Assembly (NCBI RefSeq): GCF_900102905.1
Contig: NZ_FNFV01000002.1
Span: forward strand, 62,001 to 126,000
Source of the DNA: Meinhardsimonia xiamenensis
Lineage (GTDB): Bacteria; Pseudomonadota; Alphaproteobacteria; Rhodobacterales; Rhodobacteraceae
Reading direction: 5' to 3'
Length of the DNA: 64,000 nucleotides
This document shows, piece after piece, positions 3,597 to 40,285 of this stretch (within the stretch, counting starts at the first letter, position 1; each line of letters begins with the position of its first letter). The notes beneath the pieces were generated by a model. The model had not been told where the DNA came from and searched no databases. It was given only the letters and a program-made list of their open reading frames with translations. Made by a program: the position numbers and the translations under genes.

Positions 3597-5279
3597 TCAG
3601 GAGAGGAGCCTGCGCGCGATCACCTGCGCCTGGATCTCGGCCGCGCCCTCGAAGATGTTGAGAATGCGCGCGTCGCACAGCACCCGGCTGATCGGATACT
3701 CCAACGCGAATCCGTTGCCGCCGTGGATCTGCACCCCATTGTCGGCCGCCGCCCAGGCCACGCGCGCCCCCAGAAGCTTGGCCATCCCCGCCTCGAGGTC
3801 GCAGCGCCGGCCGCCGTCCTTCTCGCGCGCGGCGTGATAGGTGAGCTGGCGGGCGATCATGATTTCCACCGCCATCGTGGCGAGCTTGCCCGACACGCGC
3901 GGGAAGGCGATGAGCGGCTTGCCGAACTGGCGCCGCTCCTGCGCGTAGCGCAGCGCCAGATCAAGCGCCGACTGCGCCACGCCGATGGCGCGCGCCGCCG
4001 TCTGGATGCGGGCCGATTCGAAGGTCTGCATGAGCTGCTTGAAGCCCTGCCCCTCGACCCCGCCCAGAAGGTTCTCGCCCTTTACCCGGAAGCGGTCGAA
4101 GGCGAGCTCGTATTCCTTCATGCCGCGATAGCCCAGAACCTCGATCTCGGTGCCGGTGAGCCCCTCGTCGGGGAAGGGGTCATCGTCGGTGCCCGGCGTC
4201 TTCTCGGCAAGAAACATCGACAGCCCGCGCCAGTCGGTCGTCTCGGGGTCGGTGCGGGCCAGAAGCGTCATCACATGGGCGCGCGCGGCATGGGTGATCC
4301 AGGTCTTGTTGCCGGTGATGAGCCAGTCGTCGCCCTCGCGCACCGCGCGCGTGCGCAGGCTGCCGAGGTCGGAGCCGGTGTTGGGCTCGGTGAACACGGC
4401 GGTGGGCAGGATCTCGCCGGAGGCGATCTTGGGCAGCCACTGGCGCTTCTGCGCCTCGGTCCCGCCGCAGAGGATGAGCTCGGCGGCAATTTCCGAGCGG
4501 GTGCCGAGCGAGCCCACCCCGATGTAGCCGCGGCTGAGCTCCTCGGAGACGACGCACATCGAGGCCTTCGACAGCCCGAAGCCGCCATATTCCTCGGGGA
4601 TCGTGAGGCCGAAGACGCCGAGCTCGGCCATCTCGGCGATGATCTCCATCGGGATCAGCTCGTCGCGCAGATGCCAGCCGTGGGCGTGCGGCACCACCCG
4701 CTCCTCGGCGAAGCGGCGGAACTGTGCGCGGATCATCTCGAGCTCCTCGTCAAGCCCGGTGGCCCCGAAGCTCGCCGCGCCCTCGGCGGCCTGCATCAGC
4801 TCCACAAGCCGCGTGCGGGCCGCCTGCGTGTTGCCCCTCGCGATCAGCTCGGCCACGGCGGGCTGTTCGAGTTCGGCCCGCTCATCCACGCCGACGCCGA
4901 TCTCGTCCAGCCGCGCGATCTCGCCCTGGCTCATCGGAATGCCGCCCCTGATCTGGGCGAGATACTCACCGAAGGCGATCTGATGGATGAGCGCCTCCAT
5001 CTCGCCGAATCGCCCCTCTGCCTCTAGCCGGAGCGCCCAGCCCTGCATCTGCGAAAGCGCCTCCACCACCGTGGCAATCCATGCCAGCCCGTGGGCGGCG
5101 GTCTGTTCGGCTTCCAGCGCACCCTGAGCGAGCTTTCCTTCCGGCGCGAGCCGCTTGCGCAGCTGCACCGCCGCATGCTCGGCCACCGCGCGTATCGGCT
5201 CAAGTGCGGCAGAGGTCAGCTCCAGAAGATTCGGCAAAAGCGCTGCCGAAGGCTGTCGGGTCTGTCCGTCGTGGGGCAT
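3597..5279 (-). CDS. mcd: Acyl-CoA dehydrogenase family protein, probably methylsuccinyl-CoA dehydrogenase
   Basis: This 560-residue flavoenzyme is far longer than ordinary acyl-CoA dehydrogenases (about 380). It has a helical N-terminal extension of roughly 150 residues before the ACAD fold. That architecture is the mark of (2S)-methylsuccinyl-CoA dehydrogenase, which makes mesaconyl-CoA in the ethylmalonyl-CoA pathway of acetate assimilation. FAD and substrate motifs such as VFTEPNTGSDLGSLRTRAV and WITHAARAH are present, and the C-terminal FEGAAEIQAQ retains the Glu expected as catalytic base. The ATG at 5279 follows a GGGAGAGAC ribosome-binding site; a slightly longer open frame upstream is ignored. 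The specific assignment is inferred from length, architecture and family context; mcl1 of the same pathway is nearby. Confidence 0.85.
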   Translation of the reverse strand: MPHDGQTRQPSAALLPNLLELTSAALEPIRAVAEHAAVQLRKRLAPEGKLAQGALEAEQTAAHGLAWIATVVEALSQMQGWALRLEAEGRFGEMEALIHQIAFGEYLAQIRGGIPMSQGEIARLDEIGVGVDERAELEQPAVAELIARGNTQAARTRLVELMQAAEGAASFGATGLDEELEMIRAQFRRFAEERVVPHAHGWHLRDELIPMEIIAEMAELGVFGLTIPEEYGGFGLSKASMCVVSEELSRGYIGVGSLGTRSEIAAELILCGGTEAQKRQWLPKIASGEILPTAVFTEPNTGSDLGSLRTRAVREGDDWLITGNKTWITHAARAHVMTLLARTDPETTDWRGLSMFLAEKTPGTDDDPFPDEGLTGTEIEVLGYRGMKEYELAFDRFRVKGENLLGGVEGQGFKQLMQTFESARIQTAARAIGVAQSALDLALRYAQERRQFGKPLIAFPRVSGKLATMAVEIMIARQLTYHAAREKDGGRRCDLEAGMAKLLGARVAWAAADNGVQIHGGNGFALEYPISRVLCDARILNIFEGAAEIQAQVIARRLLS

Positions 5280-5313
5280 GCGTCTCTCCCGTCGAGTGCT
5301 GATGTCGGAAATA

Positions 5314-5339
5314 GGACCTTTGCAGGTGCAGCGCAATAA
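5314..5339. promoter_or_regulatory. Candidate operator shared with mcl1 (ethylmalonyl-CoA pathway motif, copy 1)
   Basis: Upstream of the mcd start the + strand reads GGACCTT, ten variable bases, then GCGCAATAA. The same two blocks with exactly the same spacing occur upstream of mcl1 at 9324-9349. Inside the motif TTGC and GCAA form an imperfect dyad. The site is read in opposite orientation relative to mcd and mcl1, which would suit a dyad-binding regulator. The function is inferred. Confidence 0.45.
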
Positions 5340-5446
5340 AAATTCGAAGAGATGTGCAACAGCGCACGAAAATGACCGAAGCGCTTGACGGGTGCACCCG
5401 CGCGGCGAAAGCGCTATGACCGAGGGGTGCTTGCGGAACGGGACGG

Positions 5447-6217
5447 ATGACGGGATTTCTTGCCGAGCTGTCGCCGGGTGTTCTGGCCTTCACGCTCGCC
5501 GCCACGGTCGCGGCCGGTTTCGTGAAGGGGGCGGTCGGCTTTGCCATGCCGATGATCATGATCTCGGCGCTGGGCTCGGTGCTCAGGCCCGATCTGGCGC
5601 TGGCGGCGCTGATCTTGCCAACGCTCCTCTCGAACCTCTGGCAGGCGCTGCGCGGGGGCCTGCGCCCTGCCCTCGCCTCGGCATGGAAGTTCCGCGAATT
5701 CGTGGCGATCGTGCTTGTCTTTATTCTCGTCAGCGCGCAGCTCGTGCGGGTTCTGCCCCAGCAGGTGATGTATCTTCTCTTGGGCCTCATGGTCACCGCC
5801 TTCGCGCTTGCCCAGCTCATGGGCTGGCGGCCGGTGATCCGCCCCGAACACCGCCGCCGCGCCGAGATCGTCTTGGGCACCATCGCCGGTTTCGTCGGTG
5901 GCATCTCGGGCGTGTGGGGGCCGCCCACGGTGCTCTACCTCAACGCCATCGAGGCGCCGAAGCTCGAGCACATCCGCGTCCAGGGCGTGGTCTATGCGCT
6001 CGGCTCGGTTGCGCTCCTCGGCGGGCACCTGAACTCGGGCGTGCTCAACGCCACCACGCTGCCCGCCTCGGCGGCGCTCTGCCTGCCCGCGCTTCTTGGC
6101 ATGGCGCTGGGCTTCCGCCTTTCCGACCGGCTCGACCAGGAGCGCTTCCGCCGCGCCACGCTGGTGGTGCTGACGCTCGCGGGGCTGAACCTGCTGCGCC
6201 GCGGCTTCCTTGGCTGA
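5447..6217 (+). CDS. Sulfite exporter TauE/SafE (TSUP) family membrane protein
   Basis: This 256-residue hydrophobic protein has about eight membrane helices. It has the TSUP-family opening AGFVKGAVGFAMPM in its first helix pair and a matching repeat GFVGGISGVWGPPTVLYL in the second half. The family exports sulfite, sulfoacetate or other organosulfur anions, but the substrate here cannot be assigned and the neighbours give no sulfur context. The ATG at 5447 follows an acceptable GGGACGG site. It converges on the transaminase gene with a 6-base gap between stops. Confidence 0.88.
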   Translation: MTGFLAELSPGVLAFTLAATVAAGFVKGAVGFAMPMIMISALGSVLRPDLALAALILPTLLSNLWQALRGGLRPALASAWKFREFVAIVLVFILVSAQLVRVLPQQVMYLLLGLMVTAFALAQLMGWRPVIRPEHRRRAEIVLGTIAGFVGGISGVWGPPTVLYLNAIEAPKLEHIRVQGVVYALGSVALLGGHLNSGVLNATTLPASAALCLPALLGMALGFRLSDRLDQERFRRATLVVLTLAGLNLLRRGFLG

Positions 6218-6223
6218 GAGGGA

Positions 6224-7075
6224 TCAGACCGCGTTGCGCCGAGCTTCCTCCACATAGATCTCGCGCAGCCGCCGGGCGATGGGGCCGGGGCGCCCGCCGC
6301 CGATCTCGACATCGTCGATCGCCACCACGGGCTGCACGAATGTCGTCGCCGAGGTGATGAAAGCCTCGTCGGCGCCTTGCGCTTCCTCGATGGTGAAGGG
6401 CCGCTCCTCCACCTCCATCTGCGCCTCGCGGGCCAGCCGCAGCACGGCGGCGCGGGTGATCCCGTGCAGGATCTCGTTGCCAAGATGGCGGGTGATGATC
6501 CTGCCGCCCTTGACGATGTAGGCGTTGTTGGAGGTGCCTTCGGTCACGAAACCTTCCTCGACCATCCAGGCGTCATCGGCGCCGGCGGCCTTGGCCATCA
6601 TCTTGCCCATGGAGGGGTAGAGAAGCTGCACCGTCTTGATGTCGCGCCGGCCCCAGCGCTCGTCGGGAATGGAGATCACGCGGATGCCGCGTTCGGCCGC
6701 GGGGCTCTCGACAATCTGCTTTTCCTGCGTGAACATCACCAGCGTCGGCGCGACGCCCGCGGGATAGACGAAATCCCGGTCCGCCGCGCCGCGCGTGACC
6801 TGCAGATAGACAAGCCCTTCCTCGACGCCGTTGCGCCGCACCAGCTCGCGGTGGATTTCCAGAAGCTCCTCGTCGCTGGCCGGCGCGGCCATGTCGAGCT
6901 CGGCGAGCGAGCGGCGCAGCCGGCGCATGTGCCCCTCGAAGTCGAGAAGCCTGCCCTCGAGCACGCTCGTCACCTCATAGACACCGTCGGCAAAGAGAAA
7001 GCCCCGGTCAAAGACCGAAACCTTCGCCTCCTCCTCGGGCACATACGCACCGTTGACATAGACGATCCGGCTCAT
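6224..7075 (-). CDS. D-amino-acid transaminase (class IV, PLP-dependent)
   Basis: This 283-residue fold-type IV aminotransferase opens with VYVNGAYVPEEEAKVSVFDRGFLFADGVYE, the family signature. The PLP-binding Lys lies in RRDIKTVQLL. The cofactor-binding region EEGFVTEGTSNNAYIV and the SATTFVQPVV motif are typical of D-alanine/D-glutamate aminotransferases rather than branched-chain enzymes. It would interconvert D-amino acids and 2-oxo acids in the cytoplasm. It lies 24 bases downstream of dgcA, so dgcN-dgcA-transaminase probably form one D-amino-acid operon. Exact substrate is not determined by sequence reading. Confidence 0.88.
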   Translation of the reverse strand: MSRIVYVNGAYVPEEEAKVSVFDRGFLFADGVYEVTSVLEGRLLDFEGHMRRLRRSLAELDMAAPASDEELLEIHRELVRRNGVEEGLVYLQVTRGAADRDFVYPAGVAPTLVMFTQEKQIVESPAAERGIRVISIPDERWGRRDIKTVQLLYPSMGKMMAKAAGADDAWMVEEGFVTEGTSNNAYIVKGGRIITRHLGNEILHGITRAAVLRLAREAQMEVEERPFTIEEAQGADEAFITSATTFVQPVVAIDDVEIGGGRPGPIARRLREIYVEEARRNAV

Positions 7076-7099
7076 GGCTGCTCCTTCCCTTCCCGCGCC

Positions 7100-8065
7100 C
7101 TAGCCCCAGAGCGCCGCTTCGGGGGGGTGTATCCCTTCCGCGTCAAAGGTCAATGGCACCGCGCGGTCGCGCGCCAGAAGCAGCGGCCCGTCAAGATCGA
7201 CGAACTCGGCCCCCTGCGCCACCAGAACGGCGGGCGCCATAGCAAGCGAGGAGCCCACCATGCAGCCCACCATGATGCCGAAGCCGGCCGCGCGCGCCGC
7301 CTCCCGCAGCGCCAGCGCCTCGGTCAGCCCGCCGGTCTTGTCGAGCTTGATGTTGACGAGATCATACTTGGCCCGAAGCCCGGGCAGCGAGGCGCGGTCA
7401 TGGCAGGCCTCGTCGGCACAGACGGGCACCGGCCGCTCCATCTCGGCAAGCGCGTCATCGGCGCCTGCCGGCAGCGGCTGCTCGACCATCGCCACGCCAA
7501 GGCGCACCAGATGCGGGGCAAGCTCGGCGTATAGCTCCGGCGTCCAGCCCTCATTGGCATCGACGATGATGCGCGCATCCCGCGCGCCCTCGCGCACCGC
7601 CTCGAGCCGCGCCATGTCGCCCTCGCCGCCAAGCTTGATCTTCAGAAGCGGGCGATGCGCATTCCTCGCCGCCGCCGCGCGCATCCGCTCGGGCGCATCG
7701 AGCGAAAGCGTGTAGGCCGTCACCACCGGCCGCGGGGCGGGCAGTCCGGCAAGTTCCCACACCCGGCGCCCGACGCGCTTGGCCTCGAGATCCCAAAGCG
7801 CGCAGTCGAGCGCATTGCGCGCGGCACCCGCGGGCAGCATCTCCTGCAGCGCGCGCCGGTCCAGGGGCGGCTCGAGCGCGCGGATCTCGGCCGCCACCCC
7901 CTCCACCGTCTCGCCATAGCGGGAATAGGGCACGCATTCGCCCCAGCCGCGCGCCCCGCCATCCTCAAGCGCCACTGTCAGCACCCGCGCCTCGGTGCGC
8001 GAGCCGCGCGAGATGGTGAACACCTCCCTGAGCGGAAACACATCCTCGCGCAGCTCGACCTTCAT
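7100..8065 (-). CDS. dgcA: N-acetyl-D-glutamate racemase DgcA / dipeptide epimerase-like enolase-superfamily enzyme
   Basis: This 321-residue enolase-superfamily member has the MLE/epimerase motif set. It has KIKLGG (catalytic Lys pair), the metal ligands in VDANEGW, VEQPLP and CADEA, and the second-face Lys in NIKLDKTGG. Enzymes of this subfamily were first called L-Ala-D/L-Glu epimerases; when placed beside a DUF1611 gene, as here, they act as N-acetyl-D-Glu racemase in D-glutamate catabolism. The ATG at 8065 was preferred over a start 10 codons upstream because conserved sequence begins there. The upstream gap to dgcN holds a 24-bp dispersed repeat. Confidence 0.85.
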   Translation of the reverse strand: MKVELREDVFPLREVFTISRGSRTEARVLTVALEDGGARGWGECVPYSRYGETVEGVAAEIRALEPPLDRRALQEMLPAGAARNALDCALWDLEAKRVGRRVWELAGLPAPRPVVTAYTLSLDAPERMRAAAARNAHRPLLKIKLGGEGDMARLEAVREGARDARIIVDANEGWTPELYAELAPHLVRLGVAMVEQPLPAGADDALAEMERPVPVCADEACHDRASLPGLRAKYDLVNIKLDKTGGLTEALALREAARAAGFGIMVGCMVGSSLAMAPAVLVAQGAEFVDLDGPLLLARDRAVPLTFDAEGIHPPEAALWG

Positions 8066-8078
8066 CGCACCCCCTGCC

Positions 8079-8102
8079 TCATCACCCTGGTGCAAATACC
8101 CA
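8079..8102. repeat. 24-bp dispersed repeat, copy 1
   Basis: The + strand TCATCACCCTGG followed by TGCAAATACCCA is repeated without a mismatch at 27005-27028. Here it sits between the dgcN stop and the dgcA start. Confidence 0.8.
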
Positions 8103-8133
8103 TTTCACCCGGCAGCCGCCCGCGCAACCTCCG

Positions 8134-9135
8134 TCAGATCGCCTCGAGCGCCTCAACAAGCCGCTCCGCGCCCTGGCGGAAAGGGTCCACCGTCGGCAGC
8201 CCCATGCGCCGCTCGACGCTCTCCAGATAGCTCAGCGCCTCGTCCTCGCCCATCGCCGCGGTGTTGACGGAGATGCCCACCACCTGCGCGCGCGGGTTGG
8301 CGATGCGCGCGAGCGGCAGCGCCAGATCGCGCAGCGCCTCGAGGCTTGGCACCGGGTGCTCGGGCAGCCCGCGCAGATGCGTGCGCGTCGGCTCATGGGC
8401 GAGGATCAGCGCATCGGGCTGGCCGCCGTGGATGAGCGCCATGGTCACGCCGGAAAAGGAGATGTGAAAGAGGCTGCCCTGGCCCTCGATCATGTCCCAG
8501 TGGTCGTCGTCGTTGTCGGGCGTGAGCCACTCCACCGCCCCGGCCATGAAATCGGCCACCACCGCATCGAGCGGCACCCCCTCGCCGGTGATGAGAATGC
8601 CCGTCTGCCCCGTGGCGCGAAAGCTCGACTTCATCCCCCGCGCCTTCGCCGCCCGGTCCATGGCGAGCGCGGTGTACATCTTGCCCACCGAACAATCGGT
8701 GCCCACGGCGAGGCAGCGCTTGCCGCTGCGCTTGCGACCATTCGCGATGGGATATGCCACGGTCGGCACCCGCACATCGTGCAGCTGCCGGCCATGGGCG
8801 CGCGTCGCGGCCACGAGATCGGGCTCGTCGCGCAGAAGATTGTGCAGCCCCGAGGCAAGATCGAAGCCCTCCTCGAGTGCGGCCACCAGCACCTTCTTCC
8901 AGGCGGGGCTGATCACGCCGCCGCGGTTGGCCACGCCGATCACCAGTGTCTTCGCGCCCGCCGCCCGCGCCTCTTCAAGCGTCATGTCGGGCAGGCCGAC
9001 ATCGGCCTTGCATCCCTCCATGCGCAGCTGGCCAAGCGCGTGTTCCGGCCGCCAGTCGCGGATGCCCTGCGCCACCTTCGCGGCGAGCTGATCGGGCGCG
9101 TCGCCCAGAAACAGAAGATAGGGGGTCTCGATCAT
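8134..9135 (-). CDS. dgcN: D-glutamate N-acetyltransferase DgcN (DUF1611 family)
   Basis: This 333-residue protein belongs to the DUF1611 family. Its C-terminal half has a P-loop-like motif in CLAVGTDCSVGKMYTALAM and a typical DMIEGQGSLFHISFSGVTMALIHG stretch. DUF1611 proteins adjacent to dgcA acetylate D-glutamate before racemisation to the L-form. The open frame continues far upstream across mcl1 on the other strand, but the ATG at 9135 starts the conserved region (IETPYLLFLGD) and is preceded by a GAAGGAGA ribosome-binding site. The gene is divergent from mcl1 with a 270-base intergenic region. Confidence 0.87.
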   Translation of the reverse strand: MIETPYLLFLGDAPDQLAAKVAQGIRDWRPEHALGQLRMEGCKADVGLPDMTLEEARAAGAKTLVIGVANRGGVISPAWKKVLVAALEEGFDLASGLHNLLRDEPDLVAATRAHGRQLHDVRVPTVAYPIANGRKRSGKRCLAVGTDCSVGKMYTALAMDRAAKARGMKSSFRATGQTGILITGEGVPLDAVVADFMAGAVEWLTPDNDDDHWDMIEGQGSLFHISFSGVTMALIHGGQPDALILAHEPTRTHLRGLPEHPVPSLEALRDLALPLARIANPRAQVVGISVNTAAMGEDEALSYLESVERRMGLPTVDPFRQGAERLVEALEAI

Positions 9136-9323
9136 CGCGCGGTCTCCTTCGCCTGGCCAGACAATGCTGCGGAAGTCGCGAAATGTCGTCCGAAACTGCG
9201 AAGAAATCCCGAAATCCGGCGAATCTTCTTCGGCCAAACGCTCCTTGGACAGGAGTTTGTTGCGTGGAACGGCAGGGGCGTGCCCACCTCGTCCCGCCCC
9301 GCTGCATGCTGCGGGTGCAAAAC

Positions 9324-9349
9324 GGACCTTGCGAAGTGACGCGCAATAA
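9324..9349. promoter_or_regulatory. Candidate operator shared with mcd (ethylmalonyl-CoA pathway motif, copy 2)
   Basis: GGACCTT and GCGCAATAA blocks occur 17 bases apart start-to-start, as at 5314-5339. Here TTGCG at 9329-9333 and CGCAA at 9342-9346 make a perfect 5-bp dyad with an 8-base spacer. It lies about 57-82 bases upstream of the mcl1 start and in the mcl1/dgcN divergent region, so it could affect either gene. Confidence 0.45.
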
Positions 9350-9405
9350 TCTAGCGACTCAGCGCGGTGAAAGCGAAACGATCTTGCCAGGAGGCTTGTG
9401 CCCCG

Positions 9406-10380
9406 ATGTCCTTCCGCGTCCAGCCCGCGCCACCCGCCCGCCCCAACCGCTGCCAGCTCTTCGGTCCCGGCTCGCGTCCGGCGATCTTCGAGAAAATGGC
9501 GGCGAGCGCGGCCGATGTCATCAACCTCGACCTGGAGGACAGCGTGGCGCCCGACGACAAGGAGGAGGCAAGGCGCAATGTCATCGCCGCCACCCATGAA
9601 ATCGACTGGGGAAGCAAGCATCTCTCTGTGCGGATCAATGGGCTCGACACGCCCTGGTGGTACCGCGATGTGGTCGAGCTTCTGGAAAACGCCTCCGAGC
9701 GGCTCGATCAGATCATGATCCCCAAGGTGGGCTGCGCGGCGGATGTCTATGCGGTTGATGCGCTCGTCTCGGCGGTGGAGGCGGCGAAGGGCCGGAAAAA
9801 GCGCATCAGCCTCGAGGTCATCATCGAGACGGCCGCGGGCATCACCCATGTCAACCAGATCGCCGCGGCAAGCCCGCGGCTTCAGGCGATGTCGATCGGC
9901 GCGGCCGATTTCGCCGCCTCGATGGGCATGCAGACCACCGGCATCGGCGGCACGCAGGAAGGCTACTACATGCTTGGGCCGAAGGAACAGCGGCCGCGCC
10001 AGCTCGACTATGCCGACCCGTGGCACTGGGCCCAGGCGGCGATCGTCGCCGCGTGCCGCACGCACGGGCTCCTGCCGGTCGATGGCCCGTTCGGCGATTT
10101 CTCCGACACCGAAGGCTTCATCGCCCAGGCGCGTCGCTCGGCCACACTTGGAATGGTGGGCAAATGGGCGATCCACCCCAGCCAGGTGGCATTGGCCAAC
10201 GAGGTCTTCACCCCCTCGGCCGAAGCCGTCGCCGAGGCGCGGGCGATTCTCGCGGCGATGGAGGAAGCCAAGGCCTCGGGGGCGGGGGCGGCCGTCTACA
10301 AGGGCCGGCTTGTCGATCTCGCTTCCATCCGTCAGGCCGAAGTGATCGTGCGTCAGGCGGAGATGATCGGCGCCGGCTGA
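9406..10380 (+). CDS. mcl1: L-malyl-CoA / beta-methylmalyl-CoA lyase
   Basis: This 324-residue protein of the CitE/HpcH lyase superfamily opens with [20 protein letters not shown], as in the Rhodobacter enzyme. The superfamily motifs [14 protein letters not shown] (acidic metal/CoA site) and [11 protein letters not shown] (metal-binding Glu) are present. It reversibly splits beta-methylmalyl-CoA to glyoxylate and propionyl-CoA and malyl-CoA to glyoxylate and acetyl-CoA in the ethylmalonyl-CoA pathway. The ATG at 9406 has CAGGAGG seven bases upstream; an in-frame start 13 codons earlier is rejected. A shared motif (9324-9349) links it to mcd. accA follows in the same direction after 83 bases. 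Confidence 0.92.
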
Positions 10381-39214: not shown

Positions 39215-39334
39215 TGTCCGGCCCCCTCGAAAATTCACCTAGACATGACAATATGTTGATCGACCTGCCGCGGGATTCTGCAGCGCAGAAACCATCGCGG
39301 CGCGAGAAACCGAATACAAGATCAGGGGGCAGAC

Positions 39335-40285
39335 GTGAGTCTTGATCCATATGCGGCCCTCGGCGTGTCGAAGAACGCGACGGACGAGGAGATCAGGAAG
39401 GCCTACCGCAAGATCGTGAAGACGAGCCATCCGGACCTGCACCCGGATGACCCGGAGGCGGCCGAGCGGTTCAAGGCGGCCTCGGTGGCCTATGAACTTC
39501 TGAAGGACCCCGAGAAGCGTGCGCGCTACGACCGTGGCGAGATCGACGCCATGGGCCAGGAGAGACCCGAATATCACTACTACAAGCAGTATGCCGGTGC
39601 CCAGGGCAATCCGTATGCGCATGCGGGTGCCGGCGGGGCCGGATTCGAGGGTTTCGAGGACATCTCCGACATATTCGCCGAGATCCTGCGTGGCCGCGGC
39701 GACCGCGGCGCCTCGCGCTGGGGGTTCTCGACGCGTGAGGTGCATGCCCGCGGGGCGGACGTGCGTTACCGGCTGCAGGTGTCCTTCCTCGATGCGGCCA
39801 AGGGGGCGACCAAGAAGCTGCTGATGCCTGACGGCAAGTCGCTCGAGGTGAAGATCCCGGCCGGCATCCGCGACGGGCAGACGATCCGGCTGCGCGGCAA
39901 GGGCGAGCCGGGCATCGGCGAAGGGCCGCCGGGGGATGCGCTGATCACCATCGAGGTGGCGCCGCATCCCGTCTTCAAGCGCGAGGGCAGCGACATTCGC
40001 GTGGTGCTGCCGATCACCATCGATGAGGCAGTGCTGGGCGGCAAGGTGCCGGTGCCGACCATCGACGGCATGGTGAAGTTGTCGATCCCGAAGGGCGCCT
40101 CCTCCGGCCGGGTGCTGCGGATGAAGGGCCGCGGCATCAAGCCAGAGAAGGGCGGCAAGCCCGGCGATCAGCTCGTCGAACTGAAGATCGTGATGCCGCC
40201 GCAGATCGACGACGAGCTCGAGGCGTTCATGAAGACGTGGCGCGAGAAACACGCCTATGATCCGCGGAAGGGGATGAAGCCATGA
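39335..40285 (+). CDS. cbpA: DnaJ-class co-chaperone, CbpA-like
   Basis: This 316-residue protein has an N-terminal J domain (about residues 3-67) with the HPD motif in KTSHPDLHPDD, a Gly-rich linker, and the C-terminal DnaJ substrate-binding domains (DVRYRLQVSFLDAAKGATKK, then GDALITIEVAPHPVFKREG). It lacks the zinc-finger region of DnaJ, which makes it CbpA-type. It would stimulate DnaK ATPase. The start is GTG at 39335 after GGGGGCAG. The next gene, cbpM, overlaps by 4 bases and encodes its modulator. Confidence 0.93.
   Translation: MSLDPYAALGVSKNATDEEIRKAYRKIVKTSHPDLHPDDPEAAERFKAASVAYELLKDPEKRARYDRGEIDAMGQERPEYHYYKQYAGAQGNPYAHAGAGGAGFEGFEDISDIFAEILRGRGDRGASRWGFSTREVHARGADVRYRLQVSFLDAAKGATKKLLMPDGKSLEVKIPAGIRDGQTIRLRGKGEPGIGEGPPGDALITIEVAPHPVFKREGSDIRVVLPITIDEAVLGGKVPVPTIDGMVKLSIPKGASSGRVLRMKGRGIKPEKGGKPGDQLVELKIVMPPQIDDELEAFMKTWREKHAYDPRKGMKP

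Follow-up and report, generated by a model that had tools for sequence, protein, structure and literature searches.

The window analysed here, a stretch of 64,000 nucleotides of Meinhardsimonia xiamenensis (Rhodobacteraceae; contig NZ_FNFV01000002.1, positions 62,001 to 126,000), carries two genes of the ethylmalonyl-CoA (EMC) pathway, mcd (3600-5279, minus strand) and mcl1 (9406-10380, plus strand), which lie on opposite strands with four genes between them. The closest solved structures by sequence fit this assignment: the mcd product matches 6es9, an 'acyl-CoA dehydrogenase' that we take to be the methylsuccinyl-CoA dehydrogenase of Paracoccus (E = 8.9e-257), and the mcl1 product matches the malyl-CoA lyase 4l9y, presumably that of Rhodobacter sphaeroides (E = 2.5e-171). 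A first-pass annotation had read a two-block motif, GGACCTT-N10-GCGCAATAA, upstream of both genes as an operator for a regulator of acetate or propionyl-CoA metabolism, perhaps of the ScfR type (PccR or RamB). The motif is present at 5314-5339 and at 9324-9349, in both cases on the plus strand and with 4 of the 10 spacer bases common to the two copies. We found that both promoters do hold a conserved regulatory element, but that this element differs from the two-block motif. Across Rhodobacteraceae, mcd and mcl1 keep a -35-like TTGC box followed, 17 bases on, by a TA, and beside or overlapping the TTGC box lies a TGC-rich imperfect inverted repeat, CTGC-N4-GCRA. Judging from its likeness to the CTGC-N3-GCAG box of the repressor PhaR, we consider it rather probable that the two promoters carry PhaR-type operators in a variant form, with PhaR as their likeliest binder.

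The exact two-block motif has only two copies in the whole 3.13-Mb genome. With up to three mismatches allowed, the window holds 2 matches where 0.26 would be expected (2 of 100 shuffled versions have at least as many), and the genome as a whole gave 8 matches, both copies counted, against 5 in a reversed control. Because the near-matches are not clearly enriched, the literal motif defines no regulon, and we rejected it as a regulon definition. Its GGACC part is private to the M. xiamenensis genome and not kept in relatives: of 103 mcl1 promoters only that of M. xiamenensis contains GGACCTTG, and among 34 mcd promoters GCRAAGGTCC is likewise confined to its own. The exact motif is thus unsupported as an operator. 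The dyad described inside it is real insofar as both copies have TTGC and GCAA arms, but the spacing is unequal, TTGC-N9-GCAA at mcd and TTGC-N10-GCAA at mcl1.

Layout of the mcd and mcl1 promoters

We compared 103 mcl1 promoters (80 named loci, the window and 22 further genomes, including 3 identical sequences) and 34 mcd promoters (30 genomes and four without PhaR), together with promoters of the EMC genes ccr and ecm; the mcl1 paralogs L304-L306 and two ccr loci that were too short (L168 and L176) were omitted. Consensus alignments could be made for 96 of 103 mcl1, 29 of 34 mcd, 19 of 28 ccr and 9 of 15 ecm promoters. These alignments were anchored on the -35 words (TTG-N11-GYAR for mcl1), so that the anchor columns are fixed by construction. 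In the anchored mcd alignment a TA is conserved 23 bases past the first T of TTGCGC, and at mcl1 a TA 23 bases past the first T of TTGC carries 2.0 bits across the 96 aligned promoters in a non-anchor column. Free of any anchoring, TTGCGCTGC was found in 26 of 34 mcd promoters and TTGC-N10-GCAA in 56 of 81 mcl1 promoters. The position of the repeat relative to these putative -35 and -10 boxes differs between the two genes: at mcl1 the repeat ends 7-9 bases 5' of the -35 TTG in 75 of the 96 aligned promoters, and the mcd repeat overlaps the -35 and occupies the spacer (TTGTTGCGCTGCACCTGCRAA). The mcl1 spacer also keeps GCGCAAYA across relatives. This part of the spacer is possibly a second PhaR half-site, and in a few relatives it is, by eye, completed to CTGC-AGC-GCAA or CCGC-AGC-GCAA.

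Table 1. Promoter features of mcd and mcl1 in the window
Feature	Position	Strand	Remark
N4 PhaR-type site of mcd, CTGC-ACCT-GCAA on the gene strand	5320..5331	-	within the -35/-10 spacer
Overlapping N3 word of mcd, TTGC-GCT-GCAC	5326..5336	-	fits YGCRNYGCR
Putative -35 of mcd, TTGCGC	5331..5336	-	GCGCAA block of the first-pass annotation; 17 bases from the -10
Putative -10 of mcd, TATTTC	5308..5313	-	TA conserved in the anchored alignment
N4 PhaR-type site of mcl1, CTGC-GGGT-GCAA	9309..9320	+	ends 8 bases before the -35 TTG
Putative -35 of mcl1, TTGCGA	9329..9334	+	CCTTGC block of the first-pass annotation
GCGCAATAA in the mcl1 -35/-10 spacer	9341..9349	+	possible second PhaR half-site; conserved in relatives
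Putative -10 of mcl1, TAGCGA	9352..9357	+	inferred; TA conserved

PhaR-type sites with three- and four-base spacers

PhaR (TIGR01848/PF07879) is a repressor that senses polyhydroxybutyrate (PHB), and its box is CTGCNNNGCAG in R. sphaeroides and YGCRNYGCR in Sinorhizobium meliloti, where two sites flank the -35 of phaP1 and phaP2; the same parts of that source describe phasin genes repressed by PhaR in R. sphaeroides and Paracoccus denitrificans, and sequestration of PhaR by PHB in Cupriavidus necator and S. meliloti (PMC12542648). The M. xiamenensis genome encodes PhaR as well (L240:6579-7193; TIGR01848, 157.6 bits against a cut-off of 109.45). The conservation of the CTGC-N4-GCRA sites is well supported. 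The relaxed pattern YYGC-N4-GCRV was found in 86 of 101 mcl1 promoters, compared with 27 after shuffling (83 of 98 once identical sequences were removed), and in all 29 mcd promoters from genomes that contain PhaR or whose PhaR status was untested, compared with a shuffled mean of 7.9. The version with a three-base spacer (N3) was found in 27 of these 29 mcd promoters (6.7 shuffled), in 27 of 28 ccr promoters (8 shuffled) and in 13 of 14 ecm promoters (6 shuffled). In 409 control intergenic regions N3 and N4 words occur at 1.4-1.6 per kb, and all spacings at 1.3-2.1 per kb. The first-pass annotation had proposed ccr, ecm and mcm among the genes whose upstream DNA should be searched; PhaR-type N3 sites are present at most of the ccr and ecm promoters examined, and the 15 mcm promoters, with N3 in 5 and N4 in 3, show no excess when set against other spacings.

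At mcl1 and mcd of the window CTGC-N3-GCAG itself does not occur: both genes have CTGC-N4-GCAA, and the N3 word of mcd is degenerate. At orthologous sites either spacing can be found, which would fit one factor accepting both. At mcl1, N3 replaces N4 at the same place in 6 of the 96 aligned promoters (for example CTGC-GCT-GCAA in L049), and none has both there. Among 14 phaC promoters, within 65 bases of the start, we found N4 in 5, N3 in 3 and neither in 6; two of these loci, L240 and L241, had been chosen by the motif itself, and the other 12 give three N4, three N3 and six neither (L312, L320 and L321, also fetched for phaC, had no phaC match). Family genomes with a PhaR match show one each, so that the single factor, if there is one, would be PhaR. 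The phaP promoters carry two N3 sites around a TTG -35, and the first site lies 7-11 bases from the TTG in nine of nine promoters listed, near the 7-9 bases of mcl1. The sites at mcl1 and mcd likewise stand beside the -35.

A position weight matrix (PWM) built from 16 phaP sites of other genomes was scanned over 173,890 positions of the M. xiamenensis genome, with overlaps merged; these comprised the window and two stretches chosen for their ccr-ecm and pha genes. With one spacer base added to give the N4 version, the ranks were 1 for the mcl1 site, 2 for the phaC/phaZ site and 8 for the mcd site. In the N3 version, the genome's own phaP, phaR and ccr sites came near the top; phaP has CTGC-N3-GCAG, and phaR and ccr have close N3 forms. 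The second-best N3 score in the scanned sequence fell on a perfect N3 site, CTGC-AGC-GCAG within ATTCTGCAGCGCAGAAAC, at 39274-39292 of the window, some 40 bases 5' of a gene for a DnaJ-type chaperone (39335-40282, plus strand).

A strict N4 pattern gave 17 matches in 61 genomes against 0 in the control, including one ccr and one phaC/phaZ promoter and genes without a clear link, and no mcl1; it also matched only 10 of 81 mcl1 and 0 of 30 mcd promoters and was dropped for defining a regulon as too strict. Strict N4-type words also lie near nitrite-assimilation-like and ntrB-like genes in two genomes (L246, L257 and L254; gene names assigned by eye). An early scan of the M. xiamenensis genome with element A, allowing one mismatch, gave 27 matches against 17 in the control. 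A crude gene caller assigned 22 of the 27 to coding sequence, among them, in error, the sites of mcl1 and mcd; conservation later backed only the matches at mcl1, mcd and phaC/phaZ.

Promoters in genomes without PhaR

We searched for PhaR in 395 genomes of the family with a completeness of at least 95% and found it in 386. Nine genomes lack it; mcd is retained in five of these and mcl1 in two, and neither gene was found in G168, G303, G345 and G435 at the thresholds applied. An N3 or N4 word was present at mcd in 28 of 28 genomes with PhaR and in 0 of 5 without, the latter comprising one clean lineage and three AT-rich promoters, and at mcl1 in 19 of 20 with PhaR and 0 of 2 without, both from one genus. 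A narrower region and a stricter word reduced the counts in PhaR-containing genomes to 21 of 28 (mcd) and 13 of 20 (mcl1) and left none in those without PhaR. Single-base shuffles put the share of mcd regions that would contain such a word by chance at about 0.15. L100 was left out of this count, and the 12 mcl1 promoters scored as 'N3 only' include words elsewhere in the slice.

The clean loss is seen in the PhaR-less genus g4 (G003 and G377). Its mcd promoters keep TTGTTGCGC at the putative -35, as well as TTTTTGTTGCGC and CCTATGCC, and have lost CTGCACCTGCRAA. Its mcl1 promoters keep CTTGC, have lost the repeat and read CGCACTA in place of GCGCAAYA. At ccr of G003 both sites are lost, with the upstream CTGCAYCYGC gone and the downstream CTGCGATGCGG reading CTGCGCCACGG, and TTGCAATATTGCGC and ATTACAAAA are kept. 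The PhaR-type site at ecm of G003 is also gone; a transposase-like two-frame gene (L308:1075-1835) ends, by eye, about 160 bases upstream of this ecm. Separately, many relatives have a conserved AT-rich block, approximately TYATAAARTTACAAAA, upstream of the ccr -35 (loci L149-L178), which is partly kept in PhaR-less G003 and is therefore probably the site of another regulator.

Regulatory model and comparison with known systems

From the observed conservation and layout of the sites, the exchange of N3 and N4 in a minority of promoters, and the loss of the repeat in one PhaR-less genus, we infer PhaR binding, the direction of regulation and titration by PHB at the EMC promoters. We regard it as an almost even proposition that PhaR, titrated by PHB, acts through N3 and N4 boxes as the direct regulator of the C4-C5 half of the EMC pathway (ccr, ecm, mcd and mcl1), with the propionyl-CoA half (mcm) outside the regulon. 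When there is little PHB, free PhaR would occupy these promoters, as it does phaP, and hold the four genes down. An abundance of acetyl-CoA and 3-hydroxybutyryl-CoA, with PHB granules forming, would titrate PhaR onto the granules and release the pathway. The positions of the sites, over the -35 and spacer at mcd, against the -35 at ecm and just past the -10 at ccr, suit repression; the mcl1 site, which lies upstream of the -35, could also be compatible with activation. If the model is correct, PHB granules would be a signal for acetate assimilation in this family, storage and anaplerosis would form one switch, and how fast acetate is assimilated would be governed by how much polymer is stored. 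The PhaR box would also gain a second permitted spacing, which could guide the engineering of PHB and C2 use.

Several observations weigh against this model. The PhaR box has an N3 spacer and the right arm GCAG, whereas the mcl1 and mcd sites have N4 and GCRA, and at mcl1 one spacing replaces the other in only 6 of 96 aligned promoters; six of 14 phaC promoters show neither near the start. Other spacings are raised too (N10 in 80, N0 in 65 and N8 in 59 of 101 mcl1 promoters; N9 in 28 of 29 mcd; N6 in 24 of 28 ccr), and at ecm N6, with 14 of 14, exceeds N3; part of the spacing signal therefore comes from general TGC repetition and the -35 dyad, and the spacing scan by itself is no proof of one spacing. 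The mcl1 sets, moreover, partly overlap in species. In the N3 PWM scan the genome's own ecm site ranked ninth and the mcd N3 word was not among the top 22. As for the genomes without PhaR, the three other mcd promoters are AT-rich (28-31% GC) and prove little, leaving g4 as the only independent clean loss; the loss of the ecm site in G003 was not counted because the adjoining transposase-like gene may explain it, and the absence of PhaR may mark the loss of all PHB metabolism. The word ethylmalonyl is absent from the available parts of PhaR papers on S. meliloti and Bradyrhizobium diazoefficiens, and in the portions covered of the PhaR literature on Methylobacterium extorquens no EMC gene is named as a target. 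More generally, within the literature covered, itself partial, we found no report of PhaR acting directly on EMC pathway genes; an older report may exist in the primary PhaR, PccR and CcrR papers. PMC6520949 cites PhaR as linked to the partitioning of acetyl-CoA in M. extorquens.

An alternative that we judge unlikely, yet deserving of consideration, is that the N4 sites are bound by a second, unnamed regulator connected with the metabolism of PHB or acetyl-CoA, and that PhaR binds only N3 sites such as those at phaP, ecm and ccr. Such a factor would account for the flank that N4 sites keep, often TTCTGCRNCTGCAAAAT, for the retention of N4 in 29 of 29 mcd promoters with N3 in its place at only 6 of 96 mcl1 promoters, and for the matches of the strict N4 pattern near nitrogen-assimilation-like genes. 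Also counted in its favour is the N4 site CTGCGGATGCAC in a glyoxylate-cycle promoter of P. denitrificans, where it falls within the 18 bases that separate the two RamB boxes in oligonucleotide 46 (PMC10370305); this site fits either PhaR or a second factor. However, some mcl1 and phaC promoters carry N3 in the position where others have N4, the ccr promoter of PhaR-less G003 lost its N3 site together with an upstream N4-like site, and mcl1 and phaP have a common layout, all of which speaks against such a factor.

We consider an ScfR-type operator (PccR or RamB), the assignment suggested in the first-pass annotation, improbable. The M. xiamenensis genome has one full ScfR, L146 (PF09856, 237.6 bits), alongside another, weaker relative (39.5 bits). 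Immediately 5' of the full ScfR gene, at L146:2918, there is a TTTGCAAA box, through which this gene may regulate itself. The PccR double box has a 12-base GC-to-GC pitch. The mcl1 TTGC-N10-GCAA has the same pitch, but the mcd dyad is N9, not N10. None of the 180 promoters tested (103 mcl1, 34 mcd, 28 ccr and 15 ecm) has the PccR double box, taken as paired TTTGCAAA-like boxes with a spacer of 4 and up to three mismatches. For RamB, we built a class-2 consensus, TGACAAWMCTKAC-like, from two P. denitrificans boxes printed in PMC10370305. Words of this kind are somewhat raised at mcd (12 of 34, shuffled 0.20), but are at or below the shuffled level at mcl1 (9 of 103, shuffled 0.17), ccr (4 of 28, 0.23) and ecm (4 of 15, 0.27). 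The same paper reports that deletion of ramB raises mcd and mcl-1 transcripts in P. denitrificans (PMC10370305), which favours RamB and is a further point against PhaR. With the PccR double box in none of the promoters tested and the RamB box enriched only somewhat at mcd, the ScfR assignment is unsupported.

We think it very improbable that a shared core promoter and coincidence, that is common TTGC -35 boxes and a chance GGACC, are all there is: GGACC is private to this genome and TTGCNN-N17-TA is kept at both genes even without PhaR, but CTGC-N4-GCRA by the -35 is conserved well beyond what shuffled sequences and control regions show, and the PhaR-less genus has lost it and kept the -35.

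Among known systems, the ScfR regulators PccR and RamB (class 2) of Rhodobacter and Paracoccus resemble the case described here in that they steer acetate or propionyl-CoA assimilation in the same family, and M. xiamenensis has one full ScfR gene of its own; they differ in that neither mcd nor mcl1 shows a convincing pair of their boxes. In M. extorquens, also an alphaproteobacterium, a single EMC gene, ccr, is activated by the TetR-family regulator CcrR. The PhaR-type sites described here lie at genes of the EMC pathway. The PhaR box and the mcd and mcl1 sites share a TGC/GCA inverted repeat that lies beside the -35, as at phaP, and that occurs in genomes with PhaR and is gone in the one clean PhaR-less genus.

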